Below the pieces are notes generated by a model. The model searched no databases. It saw nothing but the letters and a program-made list of their open reading frames with translations, and was not told where the DNA came from. Positions 9,482-50,222 of a DNA stretch of 64,000 nt are shown here, one piece after another (positions within the stretch are counted from its first letter, which is position 1; every line of letters starts with the position of its first letter). The stretch lies in the NCBI RefSeq assembly GCF_000002985.6, contig NC_003282.8:12958001-13022000 (forward strand), in the 5' to 3' direction. The DNA comes from Caenorhabditis elegans (lineage: Eukaryota > Nematoda > Chromadorea > Rhabditida > Rhabditidae). The position numbers and the translations under genes were made by a program.

Positions 9482-11271
9482 TTAACTTTTGAACGTGAAT
9501 ACAGCCTTGCCTTTACTGACAACAAACTGCACAAAATGTCCATTGAACGTTAGTGGGAGTGCTTTTACCAGCTGTCCTTTGCTAAAATTATAAAAGTTAT
9601 ATATTCGAAATGATTAAGAAGTAACATACGTGTAAGTTTTATCGAGAGTGAACACGTCTGGAGAACCATAGTAAACTGTAACGGTAGAGGCCTGAAAAAA
9701 AGTAAAGATTATCAAAAAAATACAGTTGTTTTAAAATTTACATCTTCCATCTGAGCATCAATCATTTGCAATTTGAGATCAGACACTGCAACAAGTGAAG
9801 ACATCTTTGTCCCTCCGTTCAAAGTTCCGTTATAGATCGAGTTAGGTTGCGGGTGGAGTTCAACTATCTCATCAATTCCAGTCAAATCTGAATATTTATA
9901 AGTTCTAAACTATTGAGTTATTGCTTAGACTCACACTGGGATCCTTGAAGAAGAACTTTATTATTGGAACGACTAGCTTCCAAGTTGACTATATTAATAT
10001 TCTGTTGGATAGTTCTCCATTGAACTTTTTTCTGGTATAGCTGGTAGAGACTAGAAAATATTAGAATCGAAATGTACAACTGTTGAAAGTAAAGTATCGA
10101 ATACTTTTTTCATCACTTTGAATGTTAATACAGTTTTGACTAATTAATAACTGATTTAAAAACTAACCTTGCGATATAATTGGCAGAGTCCATATTTTTC
10201 CCTTCAAAAATCAATGTGCTTCTCAGTGAAATATAGTTTTTCAAATCTTCGGGAAATGATAACAAAGTAAGTCCACCTGGAATATAGAATCCCATAGCAG
10301 AAACAGTTTCTGTGGCGTTGACAACCAGTCCAGTAGTTCCAACAAGACCAACAAATTGTGATGATGGAACTGAAAAGGGAATAGATAAACTAGGAATCTA
10401 TGATATTGATAAACTAACGTGGCCACCATACGACTTTGAATGCAAACGTAGCAGATCCTTCGTTAGTGACAGCGATGGTGAACTTTGAGGCAGGGAAGTA
10501 ATAGGGTTCCATGTTTTCTTGGGTTGTTCTGGAAACATTTCATTTTCTGAGTATTCGAAATTCGGATACGGCAAGGTAGTATTTGAAAGCGATTGTTGAA
10601 GATTCGGTAGGAGCCTTCGTACATTCATCGCAATTCTCCGCCTATATTACTTTCGCGATAGAAAATAAGTCCGGAGATACTGCAATGCCGCAGATTCAAA
10701 ACGGAATTTTTTAGCCGTCGGCGCTGTTTTTCACTCCGAATGTGGTAGAAAAATGTATACTGAAAAAACTATGTGTAACTTATACCACATGTCTGTCATT
10801 TAGTAGAAAACTAGTTTAACCAAAATTTTTTAGATCTTTATTAGATCAACTTACAAGACTTCCCAAGTTCACAGACAATTCCAAAAACACATTTAAAATT
10901 CCATTTGCAGATTAGCAAAATAACTCACTGAATAAGATTTCCTGCAGCATCCACAGTCTGAAATCGTGAATCCTTGTCCGTTGTCTTTCCACTGATAATT
11001 AGTTTTGCATAATATCCATGAGGAATCGTTACAATCCAACTACACGACTGCCCCTTTTCCAACTGAGGAGCCGGTTGAGTTTCGGTCCAAGAAGCTGGCC
11101 AATAAACAGGCGTACCATCAATAACGGGCTTGTTGATTGCCTTTCCGGTTTTACAAACTGTAATTCACAAATTTTAGATAAGTTAATATTTCAAAATTAG
11201 TTTTACTTACCATTTCCAGCGGCGGAAACTACAACAGCAAACGCTAAACAAACCAATATATTCTGTAACAT
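9482..11271 (-). CDS. Secreted CUB-like domain protein, gene E (341 aa)
   Basis: On the - strand the exons are 11271-11211, 11157-10929, 10528-10419, 10369-10168, 10050-9935, 9887-9742, 9691-9630 and 9581-9482, with the canonical lengths 61/229/110/202/116/146/62/100. The signal peptide is MLQNILVCLAFAVVVSA. The CUB-like core has VCKTGKAINKPV, QSCSWIVTIPHGYYAK and GKTTDKDSRFQTVD, and the end is VVSKGKAVFTFKS. Intron 2 (10929-10529) is about 400 bases and holds a short sequence, TACTGCAATGCCGCAG, also found in intron 2 of gene F. A TATA-like ATATAT lies about 40 bases upstream of the ATG. E and F share exon and upstream sequence and look like a tandem pair. Confidence 0.9.
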
Positions 11272-12273
11272 TTCGAACTGAAGTCTGACATTTTATCAAT
11301 TTCTGAGACGAAATATATAGAGCATTTAGGATGATAATGGAAAAGCATGAAACTGAATGTTTTATCATCAAAAAAGTATTCAGAGTTGATAACAGAAGTT
11401 TAGAGAATAAGTTAAGCATGTAAAATGATGTAATGTCTTTTGGACCGCAAGTTCAAGTTATTTTTTCTCAAAATTGATGTTTCGTAGTTACGTCCAACTA
11501 ATTATAAATTTCTCAGTGCTGAAAGGTTTGTACATATATAATTTTTTCGTGTTTTCAATTTCTTGAATTTAGTCTAATGTTGCTTTTTTAATAGCTGTCC
11601 ACGAAGCAGCAACGACAACGACAAGCTATGTAGGCACATTTTGAATTGAAATTTGAAATCTTGATTCTGAGAGAGTTTAATACCGCATTTCATTTTTCAG
11701 AAGCCATTGAAAAATATGTAGAAGAATATTTTTTCTGTGGGAAATATAAGTTAATTTGCACAAACTGATGAAGCATTTTTGAGAATGATGCCATTCAAAA
11801 TCAAGAGCTAACTTATATCAAAGTCTAGATCTTTTTTCAGTTAACATATATCAGCTTCTGGGTGAAGAGAGATATTTGAAAAAATTGCAAGTGCTCATAT
11901 TTGTACGACTAGATGTTTGATAACTCGAGTTCTCTTGATTCTTTGATCCTATTCTTTGTTTCATATCTTGCCGTTTTTTCTGCGGAATTGTCATCTTTCA
12001 AGGGCTCTTTCCCCTACAGTTTGAAAATTGTGTTATCGCCGAAACTGCAGAAACTGCAATCTATTTTTTGTAGTTTCTGTAGATAAAATAAAACTTCAAG
12101 ACTGTAAAACTTTAAGCTTTAAACTTTAAGGCTAATAAAGGTTTTGCATATATTGAGGGGCTCAGTTGGAAAATTGTTGCAAAAATTGCAAAATTTTGAA
12201 ACACAATCGTCTGAACCATATGTGAAAAAACATGTATACAACTTTTTATTCGAAAACAATATGAGTTAACTTT
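11272..12273. other. Intergenic region: promoter of E and 3' flank of F
   Basis: TTATCA motifs at 11293-11298 and 11362-11367 and a TATA-like ATATAT near 11312 form the E promoter. A block at about 11824-12030 (from TCTAGATC to the CTTTCCCCTACAG region) is a diverged copy of the block upstream of F at 14181-14390. TTTATT at 12246-12251 is the - strand poly(A) signal of F. No coding sequence is supported. Confidence 0.6.
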
Positions 12274-13974
12274 TCAACTTTTGAAAGTAAACACAGCCTT
12301 GCCACGGCTCACAGCTGAACTGACCACAAACTGCACAAAAGATCCATTAAACGACAATGGAAGTGCGTTCTCCAGCTGTCCTTTGCTGAAATGATCAAAA
12401 TTCTAGATTCAATATGATTAAAAAGTGACATACGTGTAAGTTTTATCGAGAGCGAAGATTTCTGGAGAACCATAGTAAACTGAAACGGTAGAGTCCTGGA
12501 AACAAAATTATTTGAAAAAAACTGAATTTCAGTAAATTTTACATCTTCCATCTGAGCATCGATCATTTGCAATTCAAGATCAGACACTGCAACAAGTGAA
12601 GACTTCTGTGACCTCCGTTCAAAGACTTTCTGTGACCTCCGTTCAAAGTTCCATTATAGACCGAACTAGATTGCGGGTGAAGTTCAACTATCTCATCAAT
12701 TCCAGCCAGAACTGAATAGTTATGTTCTCTCTTTAACTGCTGAGTTGATGTTTAGACTCACACATGGATCATTGAAAAAGAAGTTTATCGTTGGAACGAC
12801 TGGCTTCAAGGTTGACAATAAAAATACTCTCTTGACTAGTTGACCATTGCACTTTTTTCTGGTATAGCAGGTAGAGACTGTAAAAATGTTAGAATTGAAA
12901 TTCCAACTGATTCAAAAACTTACTTTGAAACATAGTTTGCCGTGTCCAAATTGTTTCCTTCAAAGACCAATGCGCTTCTCAATGAATAATAGTTTTTCAA
13001 ATCTCCTGGGAATGTCAACAGAGTGAGTCCGCCTGGTCCCTCGTATTGCATAGCAAAAATAGTTTCTGTGACGTTGACCACCTGACCAGTAGGTCCAACA
13101 AGATGAACATATTTTGATGGTGGAACTGAAAAGGGAATAGATAAACTAGGAATCTACGATATCGATAAACTAACGTGGCCACCAAACAACTTTGAATGCA
13201 AGCGTAGCAAATCCTTTGTTTGTAACAGCAATGGTGAACTTTGAGGCTGGGAAGTAATAGGGTTCCATGTTTTCTTGGGTTGTTCTGGAAACATTTGATA
13301 TTATGAATATTCAAACTTCGCAAACTTCAAACTTGTTGTTTAAAGCGATTGCTGGCAAACTTGTAGACGTTTGCGCTTATTCAGCGCAATTCTTTATCAA
13401 TCAATAAAACGCCAGAACAAATGAACCATGAGTACTGCAATGCCGCAGCGTTGTAGCACCACATTGTAGAAAACTGATGGCGGAAAAAACCGCGTCCGGG
13501 CCTTGTACGTGGTGCCCCAACCCTTCAAGGATCAATCGATCTGAGGCTACAGTATGAACCCTCAGATGTGCTTGGCGCCTAACAAGTCTAAGCGTAGATT
13601 CTATGAGAATTCCACCTTGAAATTTGTAAAATAACTCACTGAATACGATTTCCTGCAGAGTCGACAGTTTGAATGACTGAATCGTTTCCTGTCGTCTTTC
13701 CACTGATTATCAGTTTTGCATAATATCCGCGTGGAATCGTTACAATCCAACTACACGACTGACCCTTCTCCAGCTGAGGAGCGGGCTGGGTTTCGTTCCA
13801 AGAAGCCGGCCAAAACACAGGCGTGCCATTGATTACAGGCTTGTTGATTGCCTTACCAACTTTGCAGACTGTAATTTTTACGTTAAAATATGAATCCCTA
13901 AAACCGATCTTACCATTTCCGGCGGCTGAAACAGCAGCAACCACGGCTAAGCAAGTCAATAGTCGTTTGAACAT
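12274..13974 (-). pseudogene. CUB-like gene F, probable frameshifted pseudogene
   Basis: The eight family exons are present on the - strand: 13974-13914, 13868-13640, 13284-13175, 13125-12924, 12877-12762, 12711-12543, 12495-12434 and 12385-12274. Exons 1-5 are intact (signal peptide MFKRLLTCLAVVAAVSA, then VCKVGKAINKPV and QSCSWIVTIPRGYYAK). Exon 6 is 169 bases instead of the invariant 146. A near-perfect 24-base tandem duplication (TGTGACCTCCGTTCAAAG repeated at 12607-12648) plus a 1-base loss gives +23 and breaks the frame, with a TGA at about 12565-12563. The conserved SDLELQMIDAQMED continues in another frame. Exon 8 also has an extra 12 bases in frame (VVSSAVSRGKAVF), and exon 2 has the deviant GNDSVIQ where paralogues have DKDSRFQ. 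A truncated secreted product or a rescued splice form remains possible. Confidence 0.7.
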
Positions 13975-15658
13975 TTCGAATTGAAATCTGAAATTTTCAT
14001 GTTCTGAGACAGTTTATATACCGCATTTTGGGAGCCAATGAAACATACGAAAAAGGGCGTTTTTTTTTCATAAAACAGTTATCAATTGTTTTTGCAAAGA
14101 TAATTTAGTGCTCAAACTGATAAGGGATCTTTTTTATGTGTGGCGTCATTTGAAATCAAGTAACTCCATGTATACCAAAGTCTAGATCCTCTTCTGGTTA
14201 ACAGATATCAGCTTCAACATGTTTCTGCGTGTGAAGAGAAATATTGTTACAAGGTGTAGCTACTCATCCACAACTAAATGTTTAATTTGATAACTAGAGT
14301 TATCTTGATTCTTTGATCGTACTCCTAGTTTCTTATCTTGCAGTTTTTGCGGAATTGTCAGCTTCCGGGGGCGGTTTCTCATACAGTTCGTAATTTTTTT
14401 TTTTTGAAACGGCAGAAACCACATTTTGTTTCTTATAGTTTTCTGTAGATCAGATGTGGAGATCGCACGGATTGGTAGCGCCATTGTACCCGGAAAAAAA
14501 CGTGGACAGATTCTGCTAAAACTTCCAGATGGGGTTATCAAAAATTAGTCACCAAAATAAATTTTCAATGTGACAGTATGATTTTATAAGAATCTTTCTA
14601 GATTTTTGAACAAAAAAAACAATATGTTATGTTCTTGGCTCAAGTAGAAAACATGAGTTTCGAATTTCTTGTTTTAAAGTTATACTGGCACCTAGGACTG
14701 TTATACAGACACCAAAATGCCTGCTTGCCTTCCTGACTGCCTGACTTTTAGGTGACCCCACCTGCCTCTTCCTATTTTCAAATATACACGTGGAAAACTT
14801 GTGAAGTGGGATCCGGGCAGGCGAAACCGCGCCTGCCTCCCATGAATCACACAACACATCATCACATCACACTCGTTCAAAAGTCATTTAGCTTTTGATA
14901 AACCGTGCACATTTCCGGTCCGACTTATGTGCTTCAAACTGTTTGCGACCAGCACGACTGTAGTACTGCAACTTTGACCATCAAACCATTTACATACGAA
15001 CTGTTGAGGAAACCGCCCCGGAAGCTGACAATTCCCAAAAAACTGCAAGATAAGTAACCATGCGAGGTATCAAAAAATCCAACAAAAAAAACACACAGAG
15101 AAGCTCCTAGCATAAACATCTAATTGTAGCTGAGCGCCACCTGCACTACGCCACAAATCTCGCTTCATTCAAAATCTGAAATCTGATAATGAAGTCGATC
15201 TAGATCTGAATTTCGTCTCGGCATTTCGTCCCAACTTTTACACCAACTTTAGCAACTTAAGCGCCAACTTTAGCGTTTTGCAACTTATCCACCAACTTTA
15301 GCAACTTTTTAACCAAGTTTAGCCAATTTTAGAAAAATTTTCAGTGCAAATTTTGAGGGCATCCCCAACTTTAGCCTATTTGCCCAACTTTAGCAACTTG
15401 TTTACCAAATTTTAGCAACTTTTGCACTTGGCATTTCTAAAGTATCTAAAGTTGGTAAATAAGTTGCGGCAATTTGCCGAGGTGCTACAAAACGTCATCC
15501 CACCTACTAATCCCTTATCAGTTTGTGTTCCTTATTCTCTTATCAACAACAATTGATAACCGTTTTCATGATCCAACGCCCTTTTCGTATCTTCCAAAAT
15601 TGGTATATAATCAGTCTCAGAATATGCAAAATTTCAAGTTTCAAGATTTCACTCTGAA
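13975..15658. other. Divergent intergenic region F-G
   Basis: The F side has a TATATAAAC-type box (- strand) about 40 bases upstream of its ATG and GATA motifs near 14078-14084 and 14117-14124. The G side has TTATCA at 15515-15520 and 15540-15545, TGATAA at 15554-15559 and a TATATAA near 15603. Between them lie the F-type upstream block (14181-14390), a short inverted copy of it (14999-15058), TGCCTGC-type repeat sequence (14708-14840) and a degenerate CAACTTTAGC repeat (15229-15470). The - strand open frames at 14260-15119 fall in this repetitive sequence and are not supported as genes. Confidence 0.6.
15229..15470. repeat. Degenerate CCAACTTTAGCAACTT tandem repeat
   Basis: About ten imperfect copies of a 16-20 base unit (CCAACTTTAGCAACTT and variants) run through this stretch. 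The right end carries an inverted fragment (AAAGTTGGTAAATAAGTTGC), so the block could fold back on itself. It sits just upstream of the GATA motifs of gene G. No protein is encoded. Confidence 0.75.
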
Positions 15659-21016: not shown

Positions 21017-23940
21017 ATGATTTCAAAGGTAATATTGTATTTAGCTGTTTTGTATTTAGTTTTTTCATTGGGTAATTTTTTTTGAAAGACTTTGTGTGTT
21101 TTTGTGTGTTCATTTAAGATACAAAGTGAGATAAAGTTATTCATTTTCTAATGAACTTTAGAATGTAAAACTGGAAATGTGATCAACAAGCCACTAGATG
21201 ATTCACCTGTAATCTGGCCTGCCACGTGGGATCCGAGAGTCGCGGCTCCCCAACTCGACAAAGGGCAAACATGCAGCTGGACTGTAACCATTCCTGATGG
21301 ATTTTATGCAAAACTTGTTATCAGTGCAAAAGCAATGGATCGAGACACCTACTTTCAAACAATTGATTCTGCTGGAAACATGGCAAAGTGAGCTTGACTA
21401 TTTATAACTCGAAAAACACCAAACCTGAGCCAATGAAATAACTGAATAATAAAAGTTTAGAGATTTATAAAATATTATATGTATTCAGAACGGCTGTCGA
21501 AAAAAAAGAACCGTATTACTTTGTCAAACCTAAATTTACAATCGCTGTTTCTAACAACGCTCCCACTTCATTTGGTTTTCAAATTAACTGGCTCCCATGT
21601 ACGTTTCTTCATATTATTAGGGTGTTCGATAAGTTTTTTCGTTTTTTCTCAATTTTGATTTTTTCTCAAATATTTTTTTGTGATTACATAGTAGTCAGTG
21701 AGTAGTAAAAAAATTATAAATACCAACCAGTTCCGGCAACTTCCAGACTGCATCCTCTGCCTTCGAGTGGCCGAGAAGAAAAAATAATTTTTCGATTTTT
21801 TTGGATTTAGGTTTGAATGGAAATGTTAGTGTTTCATGCAGTTGGAAAACTTTTGTATAACGCAGATTAAAAATATCAGACAACGAAAAGCACTCCTTGA
21901 TATCTTAAAATTTGAAAAAGTACCGAAAATTAGTAGCAAAAATGACAATTTTTCCTTCAGAGGGGTATATCTTGGACTGCGTGACATATTTCTATCTATG
22001 AATAACTACAAAAATGTTAAGCATTTTGAAATGAACAAATTATATGTTGACAACTTTTTGGTATCTTTCATCGTTTAAAAGTTACACATCTGAGAAGCCT
22101 GCCAACTCGAACTTTTAGAGTTCTGAAAATTGGACGTTTGTCTGAATATCTCGATTTCTAGCAAATCTATCAAAAAATGTATAACTACAAAAATAATGAC
22201 CAACTGTTTCTACATATTTTTGTTGTTGTCCATTTTAAGATATCTTCCATAGCAACAGAGATATCGCTCCTAAAAAAAAACTGATAAATGTCATAATTTG
22301 ATGGAAGAATGATAAAAATACGTTGAAGAATGAAATAACTTGTGCGGAAATTGCGTTTTTTTTGTTTGATTTCTACAATATTTCCATAATAAAAACATTT
22401 TAACTATGTTTCATAGAAATAAATTTTTTTCGGTTTTCAATTCAATTTTTTCAATTAAATTATCAAAATTTTTCAGTTTTTTTCTTATAGGGGCGGTAAC
22501 TCTGTTGGTATAGAAGATATCTTAAAATGACCAATTACGAAAATGTGTAGAAATAACTGGTCATTTTTTTTGTAATTATAAATTTTTTGATAGATTTGCT
22601 AGAAATCGAGATATTCAGACAAACGTCCAATTTTCAAAACTTTAAAAAATTCGAGTTGGCAGGCTTCTCCGATGTGTAACTTTTAAACGTTGAAAGATAC
22701 CAAAAAGTTGTCAACACATAATTTGTTCATTTTAAAATGCTTAACATTTTTGTAGTTACTCATAAATAGAAATCTGTCACGCAGTCCAAGATATACCCCT
22801 CTGAAGTAAAAATTGTCATTTTTGCTTGCCGGAACTGGTTGGTATTTATACATTTTTCACTACTCACTGACTACTGTGTAATCACAAAAAAATATTTGAG
22901 AAAAAATCAAAATTGAGAAAAAACGAAAAAACTTATCGAACACCCTAATAATAATGTGTAAAATTTACTTTTTGTTTCAGTTCCAACAACAGTTTCCGAA
23001 TACTCTGATGTAACTGAACGAGCTACAGTCCTTAACGCCACAGAAACAACTTTCACCAAATCAATTTTCGATAGTGTTGGGCTATCTTTGCTTTCGTTCC
23101 CACAAGACCCCACTAACTATTTCTCATTGAGAAGCTCGCTTGTTTTTGAAGGAAGCTCTTTCAATCAGGGCAAATATGTTGGAAAGTGAGCTTAGTCGAA
23201 TATTTAAAAATCTTGTAGTTTCAAAATTGCAGTCTTTTCCAAATGTATCAAACCAAAAAGCAGTGGTTCTCAAAAACTGGCTCCATAATTGTTGTAAACC
23301 TTGCTGCAAGTGGTAATAGTGACAAGCTCCTGATTCAGAAATCAATTTGTAAGTTTAATTAGGATATTGCTTGTTTTAAAGGGCCTTCAATCCCCAAGTT
23401 GCTCAGTGACGGCGCACCAAGTGAGACGTCGGCCGCAAGTATTGTGATTGATAGGCGCGGGGTAGACTTTGCACGACTCTGTGGATACCTAATCAGTTTT
23501 TATAAATTTTTTTTAGACGTCCAAGACATTTCTCAATTTGTGGAGCTGTACCCGGAAATCAACACTTCCTACACTGAAACTATCAACGGCGGAAATCTTA
23601 AATCTTCTCTCGTTTCCGTGTCAGGTGCCAACTTCAAATTGACAAAAGTTGTCATGAATGACGTTAGTTCTAAGTTTTGCTAACATGTTTTCCAACAGAA
23701 TATTTATGCAGGGAGCAACATTATCCGTTTACTATGGTTCTCCAACTGACATGACACTTGTGAAGACCTACACGTAAGTTGGATGCAGATGTTATAGTCA
23801 CTTGAAAAAAAAAACTGAAAACTATTAATGACTTCAGTGGCCTGGAAATCAACAAAGCCGTACCTCTGAACTTCCAAGGAGATGTACTTCAATTTGTTGT
23901 CAGCAGTGGACAAGCTGACTTTACTTTCAAAGGATATTAA
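21017..23940 (+). CDS. Secreted CUB-like domain protein, gene I (340 aa, D/I subfamily)
   Basis: Exons are 21017-21071, 21162-21387, 21489-21598, 22981-23185, 23233-23348, 23517-23662, 23712-23773 and 23838-23940. Exons 1-3 have exactly the lengths of gene D. The signal peptide is MISKVILYLAVLYLVFS. The CUB-like core has ECKTGNVINKPL, QTCSWTVTIPDGFYAK and ISAKAMDRDTYFQTIDSAGN. The C-terminus is VVSSGQADFTFKGY. Intron 3 is 1382 bases because it contains a long palindromic element (21620-22945). Intron 5 holds an unrelated GC-richer stretch (about 23390-23500) that creates a misleading upstream start for exon 6. D and I are closest relatives although four A-type genes (E, F, G, H) lie between them. 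Confidence 0.9.
21620..22945. mobile_element. 1.3-kb palindromic (foldback) DNA element in intron 3 of gene I
   Basis: The ends are long inverted repeats: GGGTGTTCGATAAGTTTTTT at the left and its complement at the right, ending CACCC. Matching segments continue inward, including AGTCAGTGAGTAGT, ACCAACCAGTTCCGG, TATATCTTGGACTGCGTGAC, TTGACAACTTTTTGGTATCT, GCCTGCCAACTCGAA and GATATTCAGACAAACG with their complements. The left arm reaches about 22270 and the right arm starts about 22490; the right arm lacks roughly 190 bases present on the left (about 21737-21940). A TA flanks both ends, as expected for a TA target-site duplication. No transposase is encoded, so it is non-autonomous. The open frames inside it are chance. 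Confidence 0.85.
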
Positions 23941-24206
23941 GACATTGATTGTTAAATAAGTGCATTAAGTCAAATTAAAAATTCAAGCAAACGCGTAAGA
24001 AATACATCAAAACGTGAGCTCCCTGGGTAATACCTGCATACACATAACGTTTCCTATGCCGAGTGAGGAATTGCTAGCATTGTTTAATTTTACTCAAATG
24101 TATTCTTTAAACTCTTTTAAAACATGATCAATTTTATTCAAAAAATTACCAGAAAATAATATATGACAATTACAGTTATACCAGTAGGTGTGAGTTGTCG
24201 ACGTTT
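23941..24206. terminator. Convergent 3' ends of genes I and J
   Basis: Gene I (+) and gene J (-) converge across 266 bases. TTTATT at about 24132-24137 is AATAAA on the - strand and probably serves J. No clear AATAAA is seen for I. Confidence 0.5.
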
Positions 24207-26453
24207 TCAATATAACAGTGGAAGAAATAATAATAAAAATGCAGTCATGGTGAAATCTAAAATGTAAATTCAAATTATTGAATTGTTGGCAAAACTTACA
24301 ATTTCCTGGGCACCCGTTGTGAGCCTCGATTTTGAAGTGCAAATAGAATCCGCTAGTTTCTTCACCGTTCGAATTATATTGCACTGTCATATTTCTACCA
24401 ATTCCTTGAAATACTCTGGATTGATAATTATTTTCTTTGGAGAATCTGAAATTTTTTAATTTTTTCTTGAAGGCTGTGTGCCTTCAAATCGTCCTCAGAC
24501 GACCTTCGCCTGCATTGCCGTAGCTTTTAAAAACTTAAGTTAACTTACTTGTGTACATCTTCACCGGTTGCGTTCTTGAAACTTATTACCAACTCTGCAG
24601 AATTTGAAACATCGAGGCGGATTACATTGATTTCAAATGAAAACGTTTGATTAGAATCTAAATTTATTCCGTTAAAAAAATAATTATTTAATATTTACCC
24701 AATCCTCCAATTTCCTCCTTGACATCTTGGAAGAAATCAAGTTTTCCATATCTTCTAGAACTTATGAATCCTTGTCTCCCGTCTGACGCGTCATTCCACC
24801 GAGCTGAAAATTGTAGTTGTTTTTTTTTTAAATTTTATAATCATGTTTCTATCTTAAAATGAAACTACAACTCACTGAAATTAGAATCTTCCGCAAGCTC
24901 GACCAGTGCCGTTCCATTTGCCAAGTAATATGTTACGATAGTTCCATAAAACTTTTGTGGAATACTTGTTTTTGACTGCTCACAGCTGTAAATGGTACTA
25001 TAATCTAATTGAAGCTCATGTTTTTGTGGCGGTATTTTTTATTCTGTTCATTTTTTGTCGCAGTACCCGATTAAATTAAAATCTATCTCTTTCAAAAAGC
25101 CTTTCATTCAGAAAGAAATGGACTTCAACTCACTTATACGTTGTGATTAGATTCGAATCATCACCTTCTCTTCTTGCTCCGTTATATATTTTCAAAACTG
25201 AATTTGGACTCAAAGCCAACTGCTTAACATATTGTTTCCCATCATCTGGATTCAATGTCATTGCTGAAACTGGGCCTTTCGCTGCGTTCAGAGTCACCGG
25301 ACATGAAGTATCACTCCAACAAGTCACACCTTTTGTTGCCGAGAGGCTTTGAACATCTGAGTTCAAACCCGTAAAGTGTCGGTTGCAAAACAAAAGACTT
25401 ACTATAATAGTCCTGAACAACAAAGTTGGATCCAACAATATAATTTTCTTGAAACGTAAAAACTGTCATTTGCTTCGAATTAGACACCATTGGCTTGTTG
25501 GAACGCAAGGCTTGGAATAAAGTTCCAAGGTATGGAGAATTCAAATCAGGGCCATCGAATACCAGTGTAATACGGAGGAGTGGCGTGAAGTCTGGATACG
25601 TTGAGGGAAAAGCCACGATGGTCGCCTGGAAAAAGTTTTAGCTTATAATTTTGCACTGGAAAAATAAAGTTACTCTAGTTTCTGCAGTGATTGTGACGGA
25701 GTTCTCGTACAGCATTTCATCGAAAAATAAAGCTGGACTAGTTTTATTGACATGGTAGAATACTGGATTTGGGGTTGGAACTGAAAGATTTTCTGGTTTT
25801 TTAGTTATCAGTTTATATACTCACACGGACTCCATTGCACCACAAATCCAAATTTCGTTGAGTTCCCGTTGGCACCAACTATCAAATTGATAGTGAACTT
25901 GTTTCCAACAAAAACGTACGGCTGGAGATCACTTGTCATGATACTGAAAAAAACGTCACGATAGCACACTTTCATTTATTTTTTTTTACGTTGCCGGTGT
26001 TTAGATGAAATTGTGACGTTTTACCAAAAACTCTATATATATATAATTTAATCAAGACATTGGGTTAATATCAGCTATTACCTAGTAGATATTTGTAACA
26101 ATATTAATTTTGCTTACAGTTCGGTGTTTCCATTACTATCTGAAATCGTTAAACTATTATCCCCTCCAATATCAGCTTTCATTGCAAACGTTGCATAGTA
26201 TCCCATTGGTATATAAATGGTCCATGAACACATTTGATTTGGTGCATACATTGGAGGATTCAGGGTCTGATTCCATGAAGACGGATAGAAATAAGGCTCG
26301 TTCATTAATACGGGAGCATCATTCTCTCGCTTGCAAACTTCAAAAATTTCAAGAATCAAGTTCGAAACCGATATGCGCAAACTCACTGAGCTGGGAGTCA
26401 TCGAAAGAATTAGTAATCTTAAAAATTGTGAGTAGAAAAAATAACTCATACAT
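24207..26453 (-). CDS. CUB-like protein with hydrophobic C-terminal tail, gene J (492 aa)
   Basis: Eleven - strand exons keep one frame: 26453-26387, 26337-26118, 25943-25825, 25780-25674, 25625-25403, 25356-25134, 24985-24876, 24803-24699, 24657-24549, 24445-24300 and 24256-24207. The ATG at 26453 gives signal peptide MYELFFLLTIFKITNSF, better than the ATG at 26449, which is out of frame. The N-terminal CUB-like half has WNQTLNPP, APNQMCSWTIYIPMGYYA and DIGGDNSLTISDSNG. The middle has LRITLVFDGPDLNSPYLG and CWSDTSCPVTLNAAKGP. The chain ends FTMTAFLLLFLPLLY, a hydrophobic tail at the extreme C-terminus typical of a GPI-anchor signal. Exon 5 includes a 147-base tract identical to gene M. K and L lie upstream as extra copies of exons 1-2. 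Confidence 0.85.
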
Positions 26454-27038
26454 TTTTAGCGTAAAGGCTTTACGTTAACCTATGGAAGCCTAACAATCGA
26501 TAACCCGGGAAAATGATGATTTTCGAATCAGAGAGCAATGGGAAAAGTGTCATAATCCGATGAAAAATCAGAAACAGCGTGCCTCTCATTGGCTGATAAA
26601 ATGGAAAATATGATAGAACACATCATCTTTGTAATATAAGTGTAGTTTCCTTTTGAGACCTGTTTTTGAAGACTATTCCGCATTTCTCTTGCCCGGAAAA
26701 CGCCTTCAGTAGGAAATGCACCAAATCAGAGTTTTGCTACGTGGTGGACTAACGGTTCGGACAATTTCGAACATATGGACCCAAAATAGGCTGAAAGGAC
26801 CGAATTTCGTAATGAGACTGCTCAAAACATTTTCAAACATTTTTTATGGCGGTTCAAAATTTCGAAAAAATTACACTGATTTTAGCTAAAATCTCAAATT
26901 TCGTTCTTTTTTCTTGGTCGCATCTGCCCGAAGTTTACAAAAAAGTCAGTTCAGAAAAATCGATTTATACCATGATACCGCCCTTATACCACTACCCTCA
27001 GTTCCCCAGTTATTTCCAACCTAATCAGTTTCACTTAC
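26454..27038. promoter_or_regulatory. Promoter region of J, between J and module K
   Basis: A GATA-type CTGATAAA lies at 26593-26600 (reads GATA on the + strand). A 31-base block at 26541-26571 (GGAAAAGTGTCATAATCC..GAAAAATCAG) recurs upstream of K at 27460-27489 with one internal difference. The rest, about 26640-27000, is unrelated sequence without a gene. Confidence 0.55.
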
Positions 27039-27373
27039 ACTTCGGTGTTCCCATTACAATCAGCAATCATTAAACTATTATCCCCTCCAATATAAGCTTT
27101 CATTGTAAAGATTGCATACAATCCCATTGGATTGGAAATTGTCCATGTACACATTTGATTTGGCGCATACACCGGTGGATCCAAATTTTGGTTCCATGTA
27201 TACGGATAGTAAAAAGGCACGTCATACCATATGGGGCCTTGATTATCTCGTTCGCAAACTTTAAAAATTTTAAATTTAAGTTTGGAACAGATATTCGCAG
27301 ACTCACCAAAATGAGACGTATCGAAAGAGCTTGAAAACTTTATAATTACGAGTAACAGGAATAACTTATACAT
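27039..27373 (-). CDS. Orphan N-terminal CUB-like module K (exons 1-2 only)
   Basis: Two - strand exons are seen, 27373-27307 and 27258-27039, with the same lengths (67 and 220) and phases as exons 1-2 of gene J. They encode signal peptide MYKLFLLLVIIKFSSSF, then VCERDNQGP, WNQNLDPPVYAPNQMCTWT and YIGGDNSLMIADCNG. Exon 2 ends with a good donor (GTAAGTG) in phase 2, but none of the J-type exons 3-11 follows before the start of J. It could splice to J exon 3 (25943), giving a J protein with another N-terminus, be a short single-module protein (a stop follows at once if unspliced), or be a truncated duplicate. Confidence 0.6.
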
Positions 27374-27704
27374 TTTTTTTCAATGAAATAGAGTTGACAT
27401 ATGAAATACTAACATTCGATAACGCCGATAAATTTTATTTTTAGAGGAGAGAGCGGTACGAAAAGTGTCATAATCCGCTGAAAAATCAGCAACAGCATAC
27501 ATTGATGAAATGCAAAAATATTTAAGAACACATCATCTTGTAGTTTTTGTAGTTTGATTTTTACACTTGATTTCGAAATCATTTTTTGGAGTTGTTCTAC
27601 AGGTTCTACATAAGTTTAATTTCATACAGCCCGTACTTTCCATTTTGAAACGCTATGGTAATAAACAGAGATGTAAGCTTTTCAAAATTTTTGAAAAAAC
27701 TCAC
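27374..27704. promoter_or_regulatory. Upstream region of module K
   Basis: This contains the block GAAAAGTGTCATAATCCGC (27460-27478), shared with the J promoter, and a TTCGATAACG just upstream of the start, also shared with J (ATCGATAACC). No further exon of module L is recognisable here. Confidence 0.5.
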
Positions 27705-28088
27705 TTCTCTTGATTTCCATTACTATCGGTAATCATTAATGCGCTATCATCAGCAATATCCGCAATCATTGTGAAATTTATAAATGTCCGGTCTGGAATT
27801 ACGACAGTCCATTTACAAAACTGATTTGACTTGTAACGTGGAATATAGGAATTTGGCCACCAAGGATATGGATAGTAATAGGGATTGTATTGATCAGTTG
27901 AAGAATTATTATTTTTAGTTGGAAATTGGGTGTCTTGGGTGGGGCATACTGAAAATTGAAAGGAAATGTTACTAGTATAGAGACATTTATAATGAGCACA
28001 GAAAAAACAACTTACACACAAAAATGTCTTCACCATTAAAAGCAGAAATCAATTTAAGAATAAAGCTGAAAAACACAAGCCAAATCAT
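27705..28088 (-). CDS. Orphan N-terminal CUB-like module L (exons 1-2 only)
   Basis: Two exons, 28088-28016 (signal peptide MIWLVFFSFILKLISAF) and 27948-27705, encode a CUB-like start with CPTQDTQFPTKNNNSS, YYYPYPWWPNS, SNQFCKWTVVIPDRTF and DIADDSALMITDSNG. It is closer to exons 1-2 of gene M than to K. Exon 2 ends with donor GTGAGTT in phase 2, the same phase as J, K and M. No downstream exons follow before K. The options are the same as for K: an alternative N-terminus for J, a short protein, or a truncated copy. The signal peptide and domain are intact, which argues against old decay. Confidence 0.6.
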
Positions 28089-28830
28089 TTTTCTGGTAGA
28101 TAAAATCTGTTGAGTGTCTCCTGCACAGTTGATACCCAGGAAGGTGTGTTAATCTGCTAAGAAGTTTACTGATAAGGCAGTAAGAGGAATGACAATTTAA
28201 ATGATTCATTGATTTTTGGAAATGTTTTTTCCGCCCTTTTTGGTTTCTTTGGTTTTTTTATTTCTAAAAAGTTTTTTTTGTAAATTCGTATTTTTGATAT
28301 TTGTGGAAGAGTCGGTGGCCGACTTCTCTCTGTTTTCGTTTTTTCTCCTCATTTTTTGTTCAAAATATTTAGTATAAAAAATTATGTATCCCTAGCAAGG
28401 GTGTCGGTTTTTTGATTTTTTTTTAATTGAACATTTTAAATTTTTAAATTTTTAAATTTAAATTTTTCGATTTTTCGATTTTTGATTTTTTGATTTTCCC
28501 TGAAAAACATCGAAAAATGACGCCTGGCCCAATTTTGACCACTGTCACCACTACGGTCGCCTGATGTTGCATGCTGTCAGCAAAGGTTTTAATCTTCCAG
28601 AAAACACATTTTTGTGGCATGTAACGCTATTCAGAACTTTTCAAAAACCCCAGCAAATTTTTAAATTGTTCGTCTTTTACCTTAGCTAATTTTCGAGTAA
28701 GCCGAAAAAATTTTTCGAAAAAAAAATCATTAAACTTTTATATCTCAACATCACCCCAGTCTAGGGAAGAAACACATAATAATTATGAGAGAAACCAGTA
28801 TTTAGGATTTATAATCAGCAGTTGCAATTA
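28089..28830. other. Intergenic region between L and M
   Basis: The L promoter contains AATCTGCTAAGAA (28151-28163) followed by ACTGATAAG (to 28176), a combination repeated upstream of gene M. The rest, about 28200-28800, is very AT-rich with runs such as TTTTTAAATTTTTAAATTT near 28431-28460 and a CACCACTACGGTCGCC patch. No coding sequence is seen. Confidence 0.55.
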
Positions 28831-31365
28831 TTAAAATAACATCATTGAAAGAACTGATATGACCAATATCACTTTTGGATCTGAAATTAAACAATTTTCT
28901 TAAAAGTGACGGGGCATAACTTACGCTTAAAATTAGCAAATTTTGTTTCCAGAGAACTAATTTTAAAATTTAAGAAAAAACCATTAGTCGCTGTGCCATT
29001 TGTAAAATACGATACGGTCATATTTCTTCCGACTGCTTCAATAACTTGTCCCAGTTGAAAATTGGTCGAATTTGAGATTCTGAAAAATTGAAATTCATCA
29101 GAAAAACTGTTAAGATTAGTAGCTTACTGATGAATAGTAGGACTTCCAGTTTCGTTTCCAAAAGTTAATGTCAACACAGCTACATTTGAAACGTCTAGGT
29201 GGGTCACGTTAACTTCAAATTGAAATGTTGAATTTAAATCTGCAGTTTAAATTTATTTCAAATATTTTCAATTATCTGAACACGCTACTCACAAAAACCT
29301 CCAATTTCTTCATAGACATCTTGATAAAACTCGAGTTCTCCAAACTTTCTGGAACTCATAAATCCTTCCCTTCCACTTGATGCATCATTCCATCTTGCTG
29401 AAAATTTCAAAATTTGAGTTTAAAAAATTTGAGGTTGAGTACTGTAGTTCGAGTCCTCTGCAAGCTCAACGAGTGCAGTTCCATTTGCCAAATAATAAGT
29501 CATAATGTCGCCGTAGAACTTTTGTGGAATATTTGTCTTTGATTGTTCGGCACTGAAAATTAAAATTAGAAAATAAATAAAAATAGAAAATTAGAATTAG
29601 AAAAATTTAAGATCAAAAACAAACTTATAAGTGACAATTAGATTTGAATCATCATCCTCTTTCTTGGCCCCACAATAAATTTTCAGGATAGAACCTGGGC
29701 TGAGATCCAGCCGTTTGATGTATTCATCTCCATCGTCTGCATTCAAGGTCATTGCTGAAACCGGACCATTTGCAGCGTTCAGAGTGACTGGACAGGATGA
29801 TTGACTCCAACACGTTATTCCCCTACTTTCTGACAGGTTTTGGACGTCTGAAAATTATTTGTCGGTTTTCTTACAGCTCATCAGAAGTGACTTCTCAAGT
29901 TTTAATTTTCAAAGTATCAAAAATTTATCAGAGGATAAGAAAGAATATGATTTTGCATGAAACTTAATACAACATATGTATAAAATATACGAAAAATGAT
30001 TGCGACTATGTAGCACCAGGCAATTTTTGTTAAAGCCGTGAAATGTCAGCTGCTACCAAATGTTCAACTAATTGAGTATCATATTTGCCTAAATAACTTT
30101 TATAACTAACAAATCTTACTGTAATAGTCCTGAACCACAAAGTTTGACCCAACCAAATAGTTCTCTTGAAATGTGAAAATTGTCATTTGCCTCGATTTAG
30201 ATACCATTGGCTTGTTGGAACGCAAGGCTTGGAATAAAGTTCCAAGGTATGGAGAATTCAAATCAGGGCCATCGAATACCAGTGTAATACGGAGGAGTGG
30301 CGTGAAGTCTGGATACGTTGAGGGAAAAGCCACGATGGTCGCCTGGAAAGTTTTTTAGCTTATGAATTTGCACTGGAAAAAAATAAAGTTACTCTTGTTT
30401 CTGCAGTGATTGTAACCGAGTTTTCAAACAACATTTCATCGAAAAACAAGGCTGGGCCGGTTTTAGTGACCGTGTAGAAGGCCGGATTTGGAGTTGGAAC
30501 TGAAATTCTTCCATTTTTACAAGTATACATATGATCAAATCAATTTACAATCGCTCCATTGAACCTGGAAAGCAAATCGTGTATTATTTCCATTTGTCCC
30601 AACAAGTAGGCTGATGGAAAACTGGCCCCCCACAAAAACATAGGGCTGAAATTCACTAGTCATCACTCTGAAAAATATCTGATTTTTGCAATAAACACTG
30701 TACAATCTGCTAACATCCTGTTACTGATAAAATGTTCCCATGAATAGCAGGAGAGAAACGTCATAAAAACGTTTGGTCTTCCTCAAAGTCATCAAATTTT
30801 TTCCCCTTACATTTCAGATTTTCCATTGCAATCGGTAATTGTTAACATACTATCGTCGTTAATATCAGCCATCATTGTGAAATATGCATATTGTAATTTG
30901 GGAATTTCCACGATAAATTTACAAAATTGATTGGGCGTGTAGCTTGAAATAGTTGAATTTTGGTCAAAGGGATATGGGTAATAATAAGTGTTTGATGGAA
31001 GAGCCAGATCAGGTGTTATTGTAGAATTGAAACTTGGACATTCTGAAAAAATTAACATGATTTGATGCGTGGCCGCGGAAAAAAATCATTTTTTCAAAAA
31101 ATATAACAACTCTGCCACCAATTTTTGATGGAAATATAAAAGCTCAAAAGCTAAGCTCAAAAATCTCAAAAGCCATCAATTTTTTGCGGCAAAATTCGGC
31201 CTCCGATTTTTTGTAAAAGCTTAACTTCGAGGAATTTAAAATTCAGTTTAATTTTCAAAACTTATAGAGTCAACATTTTCAACAATAAAACTCACGAATT
31301 TGAACAGGATCATTAGAACCAAGTGCCAAAACTATAAATAAAGAACACAATAGAATCCCAATCAT
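28831..31365 (-). CDS. CUB-like protein with hydrophobic C-terminal tail, gene M (501 aa)
   Basis: Eleven exons align one to one with gene J: 31365-31296, 31042-30811, 30667-30549, 30499-30393, 30342-30120, 29847-29625, 29552-29443, 29397-29293, 29239-29128, 29079-28925 and 28880-28831. The signal peptide is MIGILLCSLFIVLALG. Next come YYYPYPFDQN, PNQFCKFIVEIPKLQYAYF and DINDDSMLTITDCNG, then LRITLVFDGPDLNSPYLG and CWSQSSCPVTLNAANGP. The end is HPKVILVISVLSMMLF, a GPI-signal-like tail. Donor usage is sometimes weak (GTTTGT after exon 6, GTACTC after exon 7). Likely a paralogue of J tethered to the outer face of the membrane; ligand unknown. Confidence 0.85.
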
Positions 31366-31725: not shown

Positions 31726-33780
31726 TTAGTTCAACCTCAAAACAATAAAAAAATAAAATGAAATAATTACAAAGATCCTGGGAGCTCCAGAAGATTTCAG
31801 AAGCTCGTAGTTCATATAGAATCCATTTGTACTGTAACCATAAGTATTGTAACTGGAACTAAATCGATCACCCAGAGCTTGAACCTTGACGTTTAGTGTT
31901 GGCTGGTTGGAAGATGTGTAACTGAAATTCCAGAATTTTCATACCTCTAAAAACATTTTTTTAGATTTACTTACGTTTGGTTATAAGTACATTTTGATCC
32001 ACTATAAACTGAAATTCTCAACGTCGTGTTTCCCACAAAATATGCTTCTACAATGGAGAAGGAAAAGTTGACGACTTGACTGTTAGTGGTTCTTAGGAAA
32101 TCGTTACCATCCTGATATTTAGACGGTGAACCTGATTTGAAGTAACGCGATGCAAAGAATCCTTTTCTCCCAATTCGAGCATTGGAACTAAATTGAGAGG
32201 AGGATCTTGTGAAGTTGAGGAATGCATTTGTTCCCGTAAGCACATAAGTTCTGACATATCCAAGGAATTCTTGTGGTAGGTACAATGAAGTTTCATTTAG
32301 ACTGAAATTCTCAGGAATTTAATTGAATATTTATTCAAACTTACTTGTATGTAGCAACCACATTGGCTTTTGACGTAGTTTTTCCACCGATATAAACTTC
32401 TAAAGTTCCAGACCCAGATGCACTATTTAAATACTCAGCGCCAATGGTAGAATCATCCATGACAGTTGCAATTGCAGCTGGACCATTTGTTCCATCCATA
32501 CTAACCGTCCCGCAAGCTTCAATACGATCACAAGCAAATCCCTGGTACTGTACCACATCCTTCGTATTCTGATAATCTTGGAATACAAGCATGGTTCTTC
32601 CAGTTTGCGGATATGGGCTTAGCATGCTGACAGACATATACTGTCTAGAAGAAACAAGTTGCTGTTTTCTTTTTACAATTTCTAGCAGATTTCCAAGACA
32701 CTTGGAATTCCAGTCAGGTCCGTCATATACCATTACACCACGCAAAAATTGAAAGGTTTCATCATCACGTGGAGGTTTCACAACAAGGGATACTCTGGTG
32801 TCTGCTTTAATTTGAATTGGAGACGTTAGATAAGCCCAATATGTGGCTGGTTGTAAATCCGAAACAGTCACGTTTCCATGCGAAGCATCGAAGACAGTAG
32901 CACCTGGAAAAATGTGAACAATTGGATTTTTAAAACTTTTGACAAAATACATACTTTTCACATTTTTGACTTTTAAGCCCGATTTAGAGAAATTCTATAA
33001 TTTAATGGTTTTTCTTTTGCACTATGGCGTTGACTGTGGTGTTTAGAACTTGGTATAGGTTTATGTATTTTTGAATTATTAATTTTCTTATTAGTTTTCA
33101 AAACGTTCAGCTAGTTTGGCCTAGAAAAACCAAAATTTTCCAGTTTTGCAAAAACAAAAAACGTACTTTTATAATATCTCAAATTGAATCCAAATCTGAC
33201 ATTTTGTTGTCTAGTGTTCAATTGAATACTTCCACCGTTTGAAATGAAATAGAAATGTTCGTTAGTCGCTGTGTACACCCTGAAATACTATGGCATTGTA
33301 CTCACAAAAAATCTTCAATAATGTCTCATTTACTCGAATTTGTATATAAATTCGGTAAATCGTCCGATAAGAATAAAGAAAAAGACACCTACGCATCAGA
33401 ATTTCCGTAATTATCGAAACCTCGTACTGATACTGCAAAGTCACTCGGTATTGTCATATTCATTGTTAGTCTCACAACTGCACTCCATCCAACTGGGACC
33501 ATAATCTAAAACTGGAAATTATACAATTGAAAATTATACAAAGAAAAGTTACGTTAAAGAGACAATTGAAGTTGTTTGGAAACAATGGTGGCTCGGTTTC
33601 GTTGAAATTTAAAGGGTACCATGTTGTTGTTGAAGTGTCAACTGGGGCATTGAAGTGGCCAGCCTGACAGTCTAAAATTGATATTTTAAAAGATCAAAAA
33701 CTTAAAAATATCTTACCGAAGGCATTTGCATTCACACTGAAAAGTAATGCTATCAAAGCACAAATTGGAGTAAACTTCAT
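31726..33780 (-). CDS. CUB-like protein with hydrophobic C-terminal tail, gene N (496 aa)
   Basis: Seven - strand exons: 33780-33717, 33671-33553, 33505-33393, 33279-33167, 32903-32345, 32301-31975 and 31921-31726. They sum to 1491 bases in one frame. The signal peptide is MKFTPICALIALLFSVNA. The N-terminal CUB-like half has DCQAGHFNAPVD, FNCLFNIMVPVGWSA and RGFDNYGNSD. Exon 5 is a long fused exon covering what J and M spread over exons 4-6, with VMVYDGPDWNSKCLG and ACGTVSMDGTNGP. Exon 6 has the RKGFFASRYF motif, matching RKGFLTSKYW in gene O. The C-terminus APRIFVIISFYFFIVLRLN is hydrophobic, a weaker GPI-type tail than in J. A TTGATAAC lies at 33859-33866, about 80 bases upstream. Confidence 0.85.
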
Positions 33781-47277: not shown

Positions 47278-47331
<54 letters not shown>

Positions 47332-49400
47332 GCAGTAGGCAGTGTTGATAGAAAAAATTATACTTTTTATAGGTAAATTTTTTGTTATGCTGAATTTTCA
47401 CTGATTCTTGTTAAAAACTTGGAAACTTTATCAGACATTTTTTGAGGACTATTACAATTCCATTAGGCTTCTCCCATTCTCCTCTGCATTTTCTCAATTC
47501 TTTACCGATTAACTCATGCTCGGTCGACTCCGCCCCTCTTTCTCTATTCATAAATTCTTTTTGCCACTCGACCTTCAGTTTTTTTTGTTGTTGGATGATT
47601 CGCTTCTCATCCTCCACTTTTCTTCCGTATTCCACCCGTCAATTCCTTATTGTTTAGTTTAATATCTCTTGACAATCACTTTTTTTTGCTTTCAGAATAT
47701 GTCGAGGATCGAACACTGGAACAACTTCATTCATTGTAACATTCTCCTTTTTTGACTAATTCCTTAAAGGGAAGCCGCGCCAAACATACTGATGGCGGCT
47801 GCTCTTTTCCTAATCATTTCCCCTTCCACAATATTTGCTCAGTTCATCCGAAAATTGGCATTTTGGACGAAAATTTGAGATTACGGTATTGGTTCTAAAC
47901 ATAATGATATTTATGTTTAAAATGTTTGATATTGAAATTCAGATACTATAAAAATTTAGGAAAATGTTTAGGCGTGCATACCTGCCTACGCATCTGCCTT
48001 GGTATACATCCAGTTTACATTTTCTATGTAAACAAAAAATTTCTCGTGCACTTTTACAGTTTTCGCGCATGTATGCAGGAGGTAGGCATAGGTTGCCTTA
48101 AAGGCTTAGTAGGCAGACAGTCGTTTTCACCTGAAAGAGTCAGGTGAAAAGATCTCAGTCTAGATCTCACCACAATTTTGAATTCTCCCATTTGTACTCC
48201 CTAGGTTTTGAATATGTTATAGTATGGGAAAAGTGACTCACTCATATGAAATTTTCGCATAACTTTTGGAACTTTCTTTCTGGAAATGCAAATATAGTTT
48301 TTAAACTCTGAAATAATGTGGACGTTTCAAAATGTGGAAGTTTTCTTTCGAAACTTATCAAAAGTCAAAAAATTTTTGAATTATGTTTGGAAACTCTTAC
48401 TTAACTTACTAACATATAGCTGTAACGTTTTTTATAATCTCAAAATAATGATATTTTAAGATCTAAAATCTGACATTTGAAAAAAAAATCTAAACAAATA
48501 GCATTTTGTAAGCTATGCAATTTAGAAATTTTTTGAGCGATCAACTAAGCTCCCGGGCTTCAAAATTGTCGGTGAAGAGTGAAATAATTTTAAAACTTTC
48601 AATTCCAATTTCTATTACCTACATGTTTCTGTCTTCACTAAGACACCCATTCCGGTGTTCTCTTACCATGCTAATAAATAAATCACGCACCGTCCGAATG
48701 GCCCTTCCCGTCCGTAAATGCCGTGCCATTGGTTCCGCCCGTCTTTACCTAGATATTCCATCAGATACAAACACTCTCATTCATTCGATTATAATCGTCG
48801 ATACCAGTCATTTTTGTACCCCCTTTTCTCTTGTCTCTTCCCCTCACTCACCCTGCTCAAACACGCCCAATTTACTATGACCCCGAATGCACTTTTTTCT
48901 TCTTCTTCTTGTTCTATACCATTCTTTCACTCTGAGGGAATACGCCTTCGCCCCGCCGAACCACCCTTCATCACATATCCCTATGAATCTTTCACACTTT
49001 TCTCTTCTTTCTCGCTCATCCATTTGCTTTTTTTCTTTGAATTTCTAATTACCAGGCTGCTGTTTTTTCTTTGGTTTTTGGTTTTACACGTGATAGAATT
49101 TAAGGTTTTCAGGCGTTCTTGTCTAGTGATTTATAGGCCGTAGGCTCGATACAGTCAAATATGCCTACCTGCCTCGAGTTAATTTCATTTTTCTAATAGG
49201 AAACACATTTTAAAGGTTATTTAAGTGAAACATAAAATAAACTTACGCAGTCATCCATGTGTTAATAAAAAATACGGCCTACATTCCTGCCTTGTTGTAC
49301 GCTGGGGGTAGGTACGAGTCATTCGTTGGCAGGCAAATATGCCTACTTACCTCGGACCAACTCAATTTTGAAAATTGGAGAAAAAATTTTAAACACTTAC
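41420..49400. other. Long non-coding region with pyrimidine-rich tracts
   Basis: No protein gene can be supported. Notable contents are an inverted pair of CCAAT boxes (41620-41662), two CCCTAA units (42244-42257), CT-rich tracts (43280-43310, 48800-48920), a short GT repeat (44209-44222), and the TAGGCAG array (47278-47345). Open frames such as 43278-43502, 46741-47151 and 48515-49143 lie in such biased sequence and lack homology to each other or to known domains I recognise. Confidence 0.45.
47278..47345. repeat. Seven-base TAGGCAG tandem array
   Basis: Six to eight near-perfect copies of the heptamer TAGGCAG run head to tail, with one interruption (AGTGCAG) near 47330. Single or few copies of the same unit or its complement occur at 39309, 48062-48110, 52331-52350, 59941-59958 and 62570-62730. 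Confidence 0.9.
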
Positions 49401-49849: not shown

Positions 49850-50222
49850 CAGGTTTAATCTTAGGCTAGGGTTTAGGTTGCTATAGGATTTTAGATTTGC
49901 TATGGGCTTAAGCTTTTGTTTATGATTGGTGTTAGGCTAAGGTTCAAGATAGGGTTGGATTTAGGCTTGAGGCTTGGGGTTAGGCTTGGGTTTAAGTTTG
50001 GGTTTAGGCTTGGGTTTAAGCTTGGGTTTAGGCTTGGGTTTAGGCTTGGGTTTAGGCTTGGGTTTAGGCTTGGGTTTAGGTTCAGGTTTAGGCTCAGGTT
50101 TAGGCTCAGGTTTAGCCTCAGGTTTAGGCTTGGGCTTAACTTTGAGTTTAGACTTGGGTTTAAGTTTGAGTTTAGGCTTGGGTTTGGGCTTGGGTTTAGG
50201 CTTGGGTTTAGGCTTGAGCTTA
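49850..50222. repeat. Interstitial telomere-like array (TTAGGCTTGGGT)n
   Basis: The core from about 49964 to 50222 is a tandem array of a 12-base unit, TTAGGCTTGGGT, with variants TTAGGTTCAGGT and TTAAGTTTGGGT. The unit is one exact and one mutated copy of the nematode telomere hexamer TTAGGC, all in one orientation. The long open frames across it (RLGF and GLGL on +, KPKPKP on -) are artefacts of a 12-base repeat without stops. Confidence 0.9.

Follow-up and report, generated by a model that had tools for sequence, protein, structure and literature searches.

Three homologous two-exon modules, which we call L, K and J, lie in tandem on the minus strand of Caenorhabditis elegans contig NC_003282.8, upstream of a single set of exons (J exons 3-11) that continues a CUB-like protein. 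The window analyzed was a 64,000-nucleotide (nt) stretch of this contig (positions 12,958,001 to 13,022,000), and the coordinates below count from its first letter. Judging from the sequence, we favor with moderate confidence the reading that L, K and J are alternative 5′ cassettes of one transcription unit with a shared J body, to which the upstream cassettes would be joined by K-J and L-J splice junctions.

Along the minus strand the order is M (11 exons), L (2 exons), K (2 exons) and J (11 exons). L consists of exon 1 (28016..28088; gene model, donor score 9.9) and exon 2 (27705..27948; donor GTGAGT), K of exon 1 (27307..27373) and exon 2 (27039..27258; donor GTAAGT), and J begins with exon 1 (26387..26453; gene model) and exon 2 (26118..26337; donor GTAAGC). 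This tandem arrangement before one exon 3-11 set, coordinates included, had been described correctly in the original prediction, as had the phase-2 donor at the end of all three second exons, which the exon lengths bear out; each exon 1 ends in phase 1. J exon 3 (25825..25943) carries the candidate acceptor common to the three cassettes. Exons 4-11 (25780-25674, 25625-25403, 25356-25134, 24985-24876, 24803-24699, 24657-24549, 24445-24300 and 24256-24207), which span 24207..25780, encode DUF7592 and DUF7591 (Pfam). The J stop codon ends at 24207, and an AATAAA at 24133..24138 on the same strand (motif scan) could serve the shared body as its poly(A) signal. The J translation is open over 492 amino acids (aa) and has a hydrophobic C-terminus resembling a glycosylphosphatidylinositol (GPI) tail; this was judged by eye, as were the hydrophobic, signal-peptide-like stretches with which the N-termini of L, K and J each start.

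The cassettes divide a domain with the shared body. Pfam CUB_2 (PF02408) has 120 positions and a curated cut-off of 23 bits. Exons 1-2 of K alone scored 54.9 bits over positions 14-80, and those of L 50.2 bits over positions 13-80; with J exons 3-4 appended, the matches extended to 14-120 (99.5 bits) and 13-120 (94.1 bits), compared with 114.2 bits for J itself, all above the cut-off. A cassette is therefore about two-thirds of CUB_2, J exon 3 adds the last third, and the splice junction lies inside the domain. The expectation that each module would have its own signal peptide and CUB-like start thus held for the hydrophobic starts and failed for a complete CUB-like head, of which only positions 13 or 14 to 80 are present. 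Cysteine pairs occur at comparable places in the three cassettes (24 and 59 in J, 24 and 59 in K, 26 and 69 in L, with one extra cysteine in K), and the two cassette cysteines may pair with each other.

Joining each cassette to J exon 3 gave an open protein of 492-502 aa; together with the phase-2 ends of all exon 2s, this puts all three in phase for splicing to that shared exon. We tested 14 exon orders, and the six that remained open to the J stop all contained one exon 1 and one exon 2. Early stops arose in the other eight, of which four had more than one exon 2, three had no exon 2 and one had an internal J exon 1. Because the frame tolerates one exon 2 only among the orders tested, transcripts carrying two would be unproductive.

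To place these cassettes within the cluster, we assembled 14 N-terminal modules from tblastn searches that used peptides of J exons 1-2 and of J exon 3 as queries, after dropping two exon 1-2 matches (E 4.1 and 6.5). Eleven of the 14 have their own exon 3 within 113-423 nt (tblastn with six exon 3 peptides), and a diverged exon 3 could be recognized by eye for the module at 33693. The same kind of search between L and K and between K and J found no exon 3, leaving K and L as the only modules of the set without one of their own. An exon 3 at 35737 had no N-terminal module that the J-derived queries could find.

The regions upstream of the cassettes were similar in two pairs. By blastn, alignment and shuffling, the K 5′ flank (27374..27577, minus strand) is homologous to the J 5′ flank (alignment score 170, best of 500 shuffles 40), and the region upstream of L aligned with that upstream of M (score 85, best of 500 shuffles 53). 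Similarity holds just for these pairs, and one promoter motif common to M, L, K and J was rejected, the M/L versus K/J scores being reached by 31, 91, 138 and 400 of 500 shuffles. The alignments indicate that upstream regions were copied along with the cassettes, K's from the J type and L's from the M type. L has in common with the M upstream region a promoter-like module (28151..28175, minus strand) made of TTATCAGT, a GATA site, and then TTAGCAGATT. Written as TTATCAGTN5-12TTAGCAGATT, the module has three exact matches in the 64 kb (before M, before L and in M intron 2), compared with a shuffle mean of 0.00. TTATCAG is the complement of CTGATAA, containing the GATA core TGATAA, which a passage of PMC4446034 links to ELT-2 targets. 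A motif scan placed GATA-type sites upstream of the cassettes, and the copied regions are candidate promoters.

Splice sites were scored with a donor matrix built from 19 J and M donors (mean score 8.1) and an acceptor matrix with a training mean of 9.5. The four predicted K and L donors rank 1, 2, 3 and 5 among the 92 GT sites in 28088-26454, with the K exon 2 donor first (10.06) and the L exon 2 donor fifth (6.60); the J exon 2 donor scored 8.38. At 10.7, the J exon 3 acceptor is strong relative to its training mean. The best acceptor between L and K is TTTTTCAG in the K 5′ flank (first exon base 27477, score 8.5), the J equivalent of which has been lost (TTTTTCAT). Position 27477 is also a candidate spliced leader 1 (SL1) site for K, and TTATCTACCAG, directly before the L start, is the candidate for L.

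Based on this anatomy, we propose that each cassette would be driven by a promoter of its own and would consist of an exon 1 for the signal peptide and an exon 2 that brings the CUB-like domain to about two-thirds. Transcription from one cassette's promoter would yield an RNA in which that cassette's exon 2 skips the downstream cassettes and splices to J exon 3, completing the domain, while exons 4-11 would supply the common DUF7592/DUF7591 body with its GPI-like tail. Messenger RNAs (mRNAs) with two exon 2s would be discarded by frame, and the outcome would be one putatively GPI-anchored surface protein with three selectable heads. Expression would probably be intestinal and under GATA/ELT-2-type control, as for the cluster mate F55G11.2. 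A more ambitious version holds that promoter choice exchanges the variable portion of a single surface CUB-like domain, that different microbes induce different heads and that multi-cassette loci are old in the cluster, M intron 2 being the relic of a lost M cassette; taken as a whole, we regard this version as rather doubtful.

A role as a splicing switch was rejected for a possible RNA hairpin with arms at 25950-25962 and 26010-26022 in J intron 2, as its fold was no better than shuffles (z 0.57); inverted repeats of this arm length are common around the intron, with 34 pairs in 2.5 kb. Separately, the K-J interval contains short antisense matches at 26716-26771 (13 of 13 nt to J exon 2, and 92% of 13 nt twice to K exon 2), which may be chance or an inserted repeat.

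We then asked whether K and L behave as functional sequence. In pairwise codon models the divergence of J and K (omega 0.33 over 95 codons, omega 1 rejected with p 0.001) and of L and M (omega 0.15 over 94 codons, p 2e-6) shows purifying selection, and a four-taxon model with a single omega of 0.24 likewise rejected neutrality overall (log-likelihood -1127.1 versus -1147.4). When each branch alone was set to omega 1, the likelihood-ratio test (LRT) statistic was 0.74 for K, 1.51 for J, 3.87 for L and 4.37 for M. K and J were thus indistinguishable from neutral and L and M marginal; because J, an undoubted gene, also fails, the branch test has little power. In simulations of neutral decay (20,000 runs), 0.6-1.6% of runs retained a K-like open reading frame (ORF) and no more than 0.04% retained an L-like one. 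These figures are rough, because the indel rate comes from a count by eye in a single alignment, a second aligner set the gaps differently, even within exon 2, and the L runs started from the M cassette at a doubled rate.

Several observations weigh against alternative cassettes. The K branch taken alone is compatible with neutrality, and the test on the L branch is marginal. Identity between K and J is 76% in the exons (67% in exon 1, 80% in exon 2), 76% in the 5′ flank, 81% in intron 1 and 69% in the first 39 nt of the 3′ flank, so the exons as a whole are no more alike than their surroundings, and nucleotide conservation alone leaves K unmarked as coding. Complete K and L genes that had recently lost their 3′ exons would also show intact ORFs. 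The L exon 2 donor falls under the training mean, and splicing L to the 27477 acceptor would end the product after 3 more residues. An AATAAA lies at 27439 on the minus strand, between the L donor and the K start. Finally, the intron-1 acceptors of K (AAAG) and J (GAAG) are atypical compared with the usual CAG; since this acceptor is unusual and K intron 1 is open in frame, the boundary between K exons 1 and 2 is less certain.

These points bear most directly on the possibility that K and L arose by partial duplication, or remain from full genes whose exons 3-11 were lost, and make no functional product, leaving J as the sole gene. Such an origin is unlikely in our assessment, if still to be taken seriously. 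The blastn homology between K (27577 to 27008) and J (26670 to 26087), at 74%, stops at 27008, 31 nt beyond the K donor, and continues weakly into J intron 2 (score 33, best shuffle 32), as expected of a truncated copy. The K branch and the even K-J identities fit this explanation as well, and the cluster is rich in duplications and includes a described pseudogene, F55G11.3 (in a passage of PMC4446034). However, the ORFs and start codons of K and L are intact and both exons of each are followed by consensus donors; K and L thus lack the disabled frames or splice sites of a truncated pseudogene; the atypical K intron-1 acceptor is also present in J. Pairwise coding constraint is significant, the rough simulations disfavor neutral decay, and both K and L retain the upstream sequence of the parent copy. 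The preference of the original prediction for alternative heads over a dead truncated duplication is therefore upheld in part: intact ORFs and donors, the restriction of exon-3-less modules to K and L, chimeras that complete the domain, a frame that accepts one exon 2 and copied upstream regions speak for it, and the K-branch test and the K-J exon identity do not.

Two other explanations retain the cassettes as transcribed units. K and L could be separate short genes for secreted peptides of 96 and 106 aa, given that the unspliced frame stops immediately past exon 2, inside the donor (GTG TAA; AAG TGA), and that the AATAAA at 27439 follows L. Such a product would end at position 80 of a 120-position domain, however, and the J donor holds the same kind of stop (CTG TAA), which makes the stop a by-product of the donor consensus. 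A motif scan of the minus strand between the K donor and the J start found no AATAAA, an absence that means little because the DNA is so AT-rich. We consider separate short genes improbable. It is likewise improbable, in our view, that the upstream cassettes are regulatory, with unproductive K or L mRNAs tuning J through a double exon 2 or splicing to 27477. All four multi-exon-2 orders tested do hit early stops, and the best acceptor between L and K would carry L to a stop after 3 residues, but tuning of this kind leaves the coding constraint on the cassettes unexplained.

The relationships among the modules offer some indication of how an array of alternative cassettes might have formed. Trees built from the exon 2 peptides of 10 modules out of the 14 (59 columns) placed L together with the M cassette (94 ultrafast bootstrap, 0.99 FastTree). 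K joins L and M rather than J with weak support (72 and 0.90), though by identity no pair is closer than J and K. M is a complete neighboring gene of 11 exons (28831..31365, minus strand). Its body is 70% identical to that of J over 397 codons and is the best match to the J body in the window, at 56-58% over the main pieces (intron-spanning frames included) versus 25-27% for the next two. Since L groups with the M cassette and the M body is closest to the J body, L could be the original head of the J body and not a fragment. One suggestive history is that L and the J body arose as a tandem copy of M and that the J and K cassettes were inserted later into the former L intron 2; it is suggestive only, given saturated synonymous distances and the weakness of the intron match. 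Homology of the L 3′ flank or of J intron 2 to M intron 2, which might have dated an exon loss, was rejected, with nothing above shuffles.

M intron 2 itself contains the third copy of the M/L module (30704..30730, minus strand), with the GATA site and TTAGCAGATT on the same strand. Among the 20 J and M introns listed, it ranked top in comparisons with the regions upstream of K and of M, and its scores were reached by 15-25 (K), 6-12 (M) and 648-659 (J, equivalent to no match) of 4000 shuffles. Most of the intron can be aligned, if weakly, with the region upstream of K; of 639 minus-strand stretches in the window, 17 reached the K score, a count that includes true copies. M intron 2 may be the relic of a similar multi-cassette state, and we suggest only that its module could be what a lost cassette left behind or could act from the intron as a promoter or enhancer. 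J and M also have in common 147 identical bases (J 25632-25486, M 30349-30203) over the end of intron 4 and exon 5, in contrast to exons 3, 4 and 6-11, which are just 46-81% alike; the stretch looks like a recent gene conversion or exchange.

Exact primer matches identify the window as the C. elegans F55G11 cluster, a group of CUB-like genes. A published quantitative polymerase chain reaction (qPCR) primer pair for dod-22, which we take to be F55G11.5, matched exactly at 7918 and 8070. All three F55G11.2 promoter primers matched exactly at 12960, 12934 and 11214, one of them with three further 2-mismatch matches. The primer sequences are those printed in PMC2553839, PMC4111578 and PMC7679379 for dod-22 and in PMC4446034 for F55G11.2. 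The F55G11.2 primers map to the interval 11000-14013, in which the gene upstream, presumably the F55G11.3 named above, still has an exon 2 that is open and a match to exon 3. An identical primer pair is printed for dod-22 and dod-24 in PMC6316807, and it had no match in the window. Naming J by primers was not successful, as those for C32H11.4, dod-24, F08G5.6, F35E12.5 and B0024.4 all lacked a match at <3 mismatches in the window; dod-22 and F55G11.2 are the only named genes that primers placed there.

Elsewhere in the window we noted a large nested inverted repeat at 21935-22826, foldback-element-like, with arms of 182 nt (95%) and 168 nt (88%), a 12-bp tandem array of AGGCTTGGGTTT at 49970-50216 (20.6 copies, both strands open) and a GTAGGCA array at 47281-47343.

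The locus has homologous first-exon modules before one downstream set, with every cassette in phase, and in this it resembles several known systems. Mammalian UGT1A has tandem alternative first exons with their own promoters and shared downstream exons; the likeness lies in the tandem first exons and shared body, and the difference is that UGT1A is an enzyme whose first exon carries the substrate-binding half. The variable exon of the vertebrate clustered protocadherins codes for the ectodomain and their constant part lies in the cytoplasm, whereas here the constant part would be most of the ectodomain with the GPI-like tail. The protocadherins have alternative promoters before variable first exons that are spliced to common exons, as outlined in PMC4835542, and the arrangement proposed for this locus would be alike. 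PMC4835542 also describes chelicerate sDscam genes, which carry several multi-exon cassettes in tandem at the 5′ end, with a promoter in front of each; these cassettes code for a portion of the extracellular region and are followed by the constant exons. The sDscam proteins are Dscam-related and contain immunoglobulin domains, and promoter activity and junctions have been demonstrated for them, in contrast to the three putative cassettes here, in which the shared junction would cut a CUB-like domain. Downstream sDscam cassettes can also splice to the constant exon (PMC4835542), so mixed transcripts may occur at the L/K/J locus too. The other 12 modules examined in the F55G11 cluster belong to the same family and have one head and one exon 3 each. 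No report of alternative heads in the C. elegans CUB-like family was among the literature matches listed, and neither F55G11 nor CUB appears in the main text of the long-read RNA study PMC11213008.

The role of many pathogen-induced C. elegans CUB-like proteins has been described as unknown, for example in a passage of PMC3527274. If L, K and J are alternative cassettes, a known kind of locus, the tandem 5′-cassette arrangement, would be present in a nematode immune family and in a laboratory animal that allows deletion of individual cassettes. One body with a varied head would then suggest that the cassette's part of the CUB-like domain is the part that carries out recognition.

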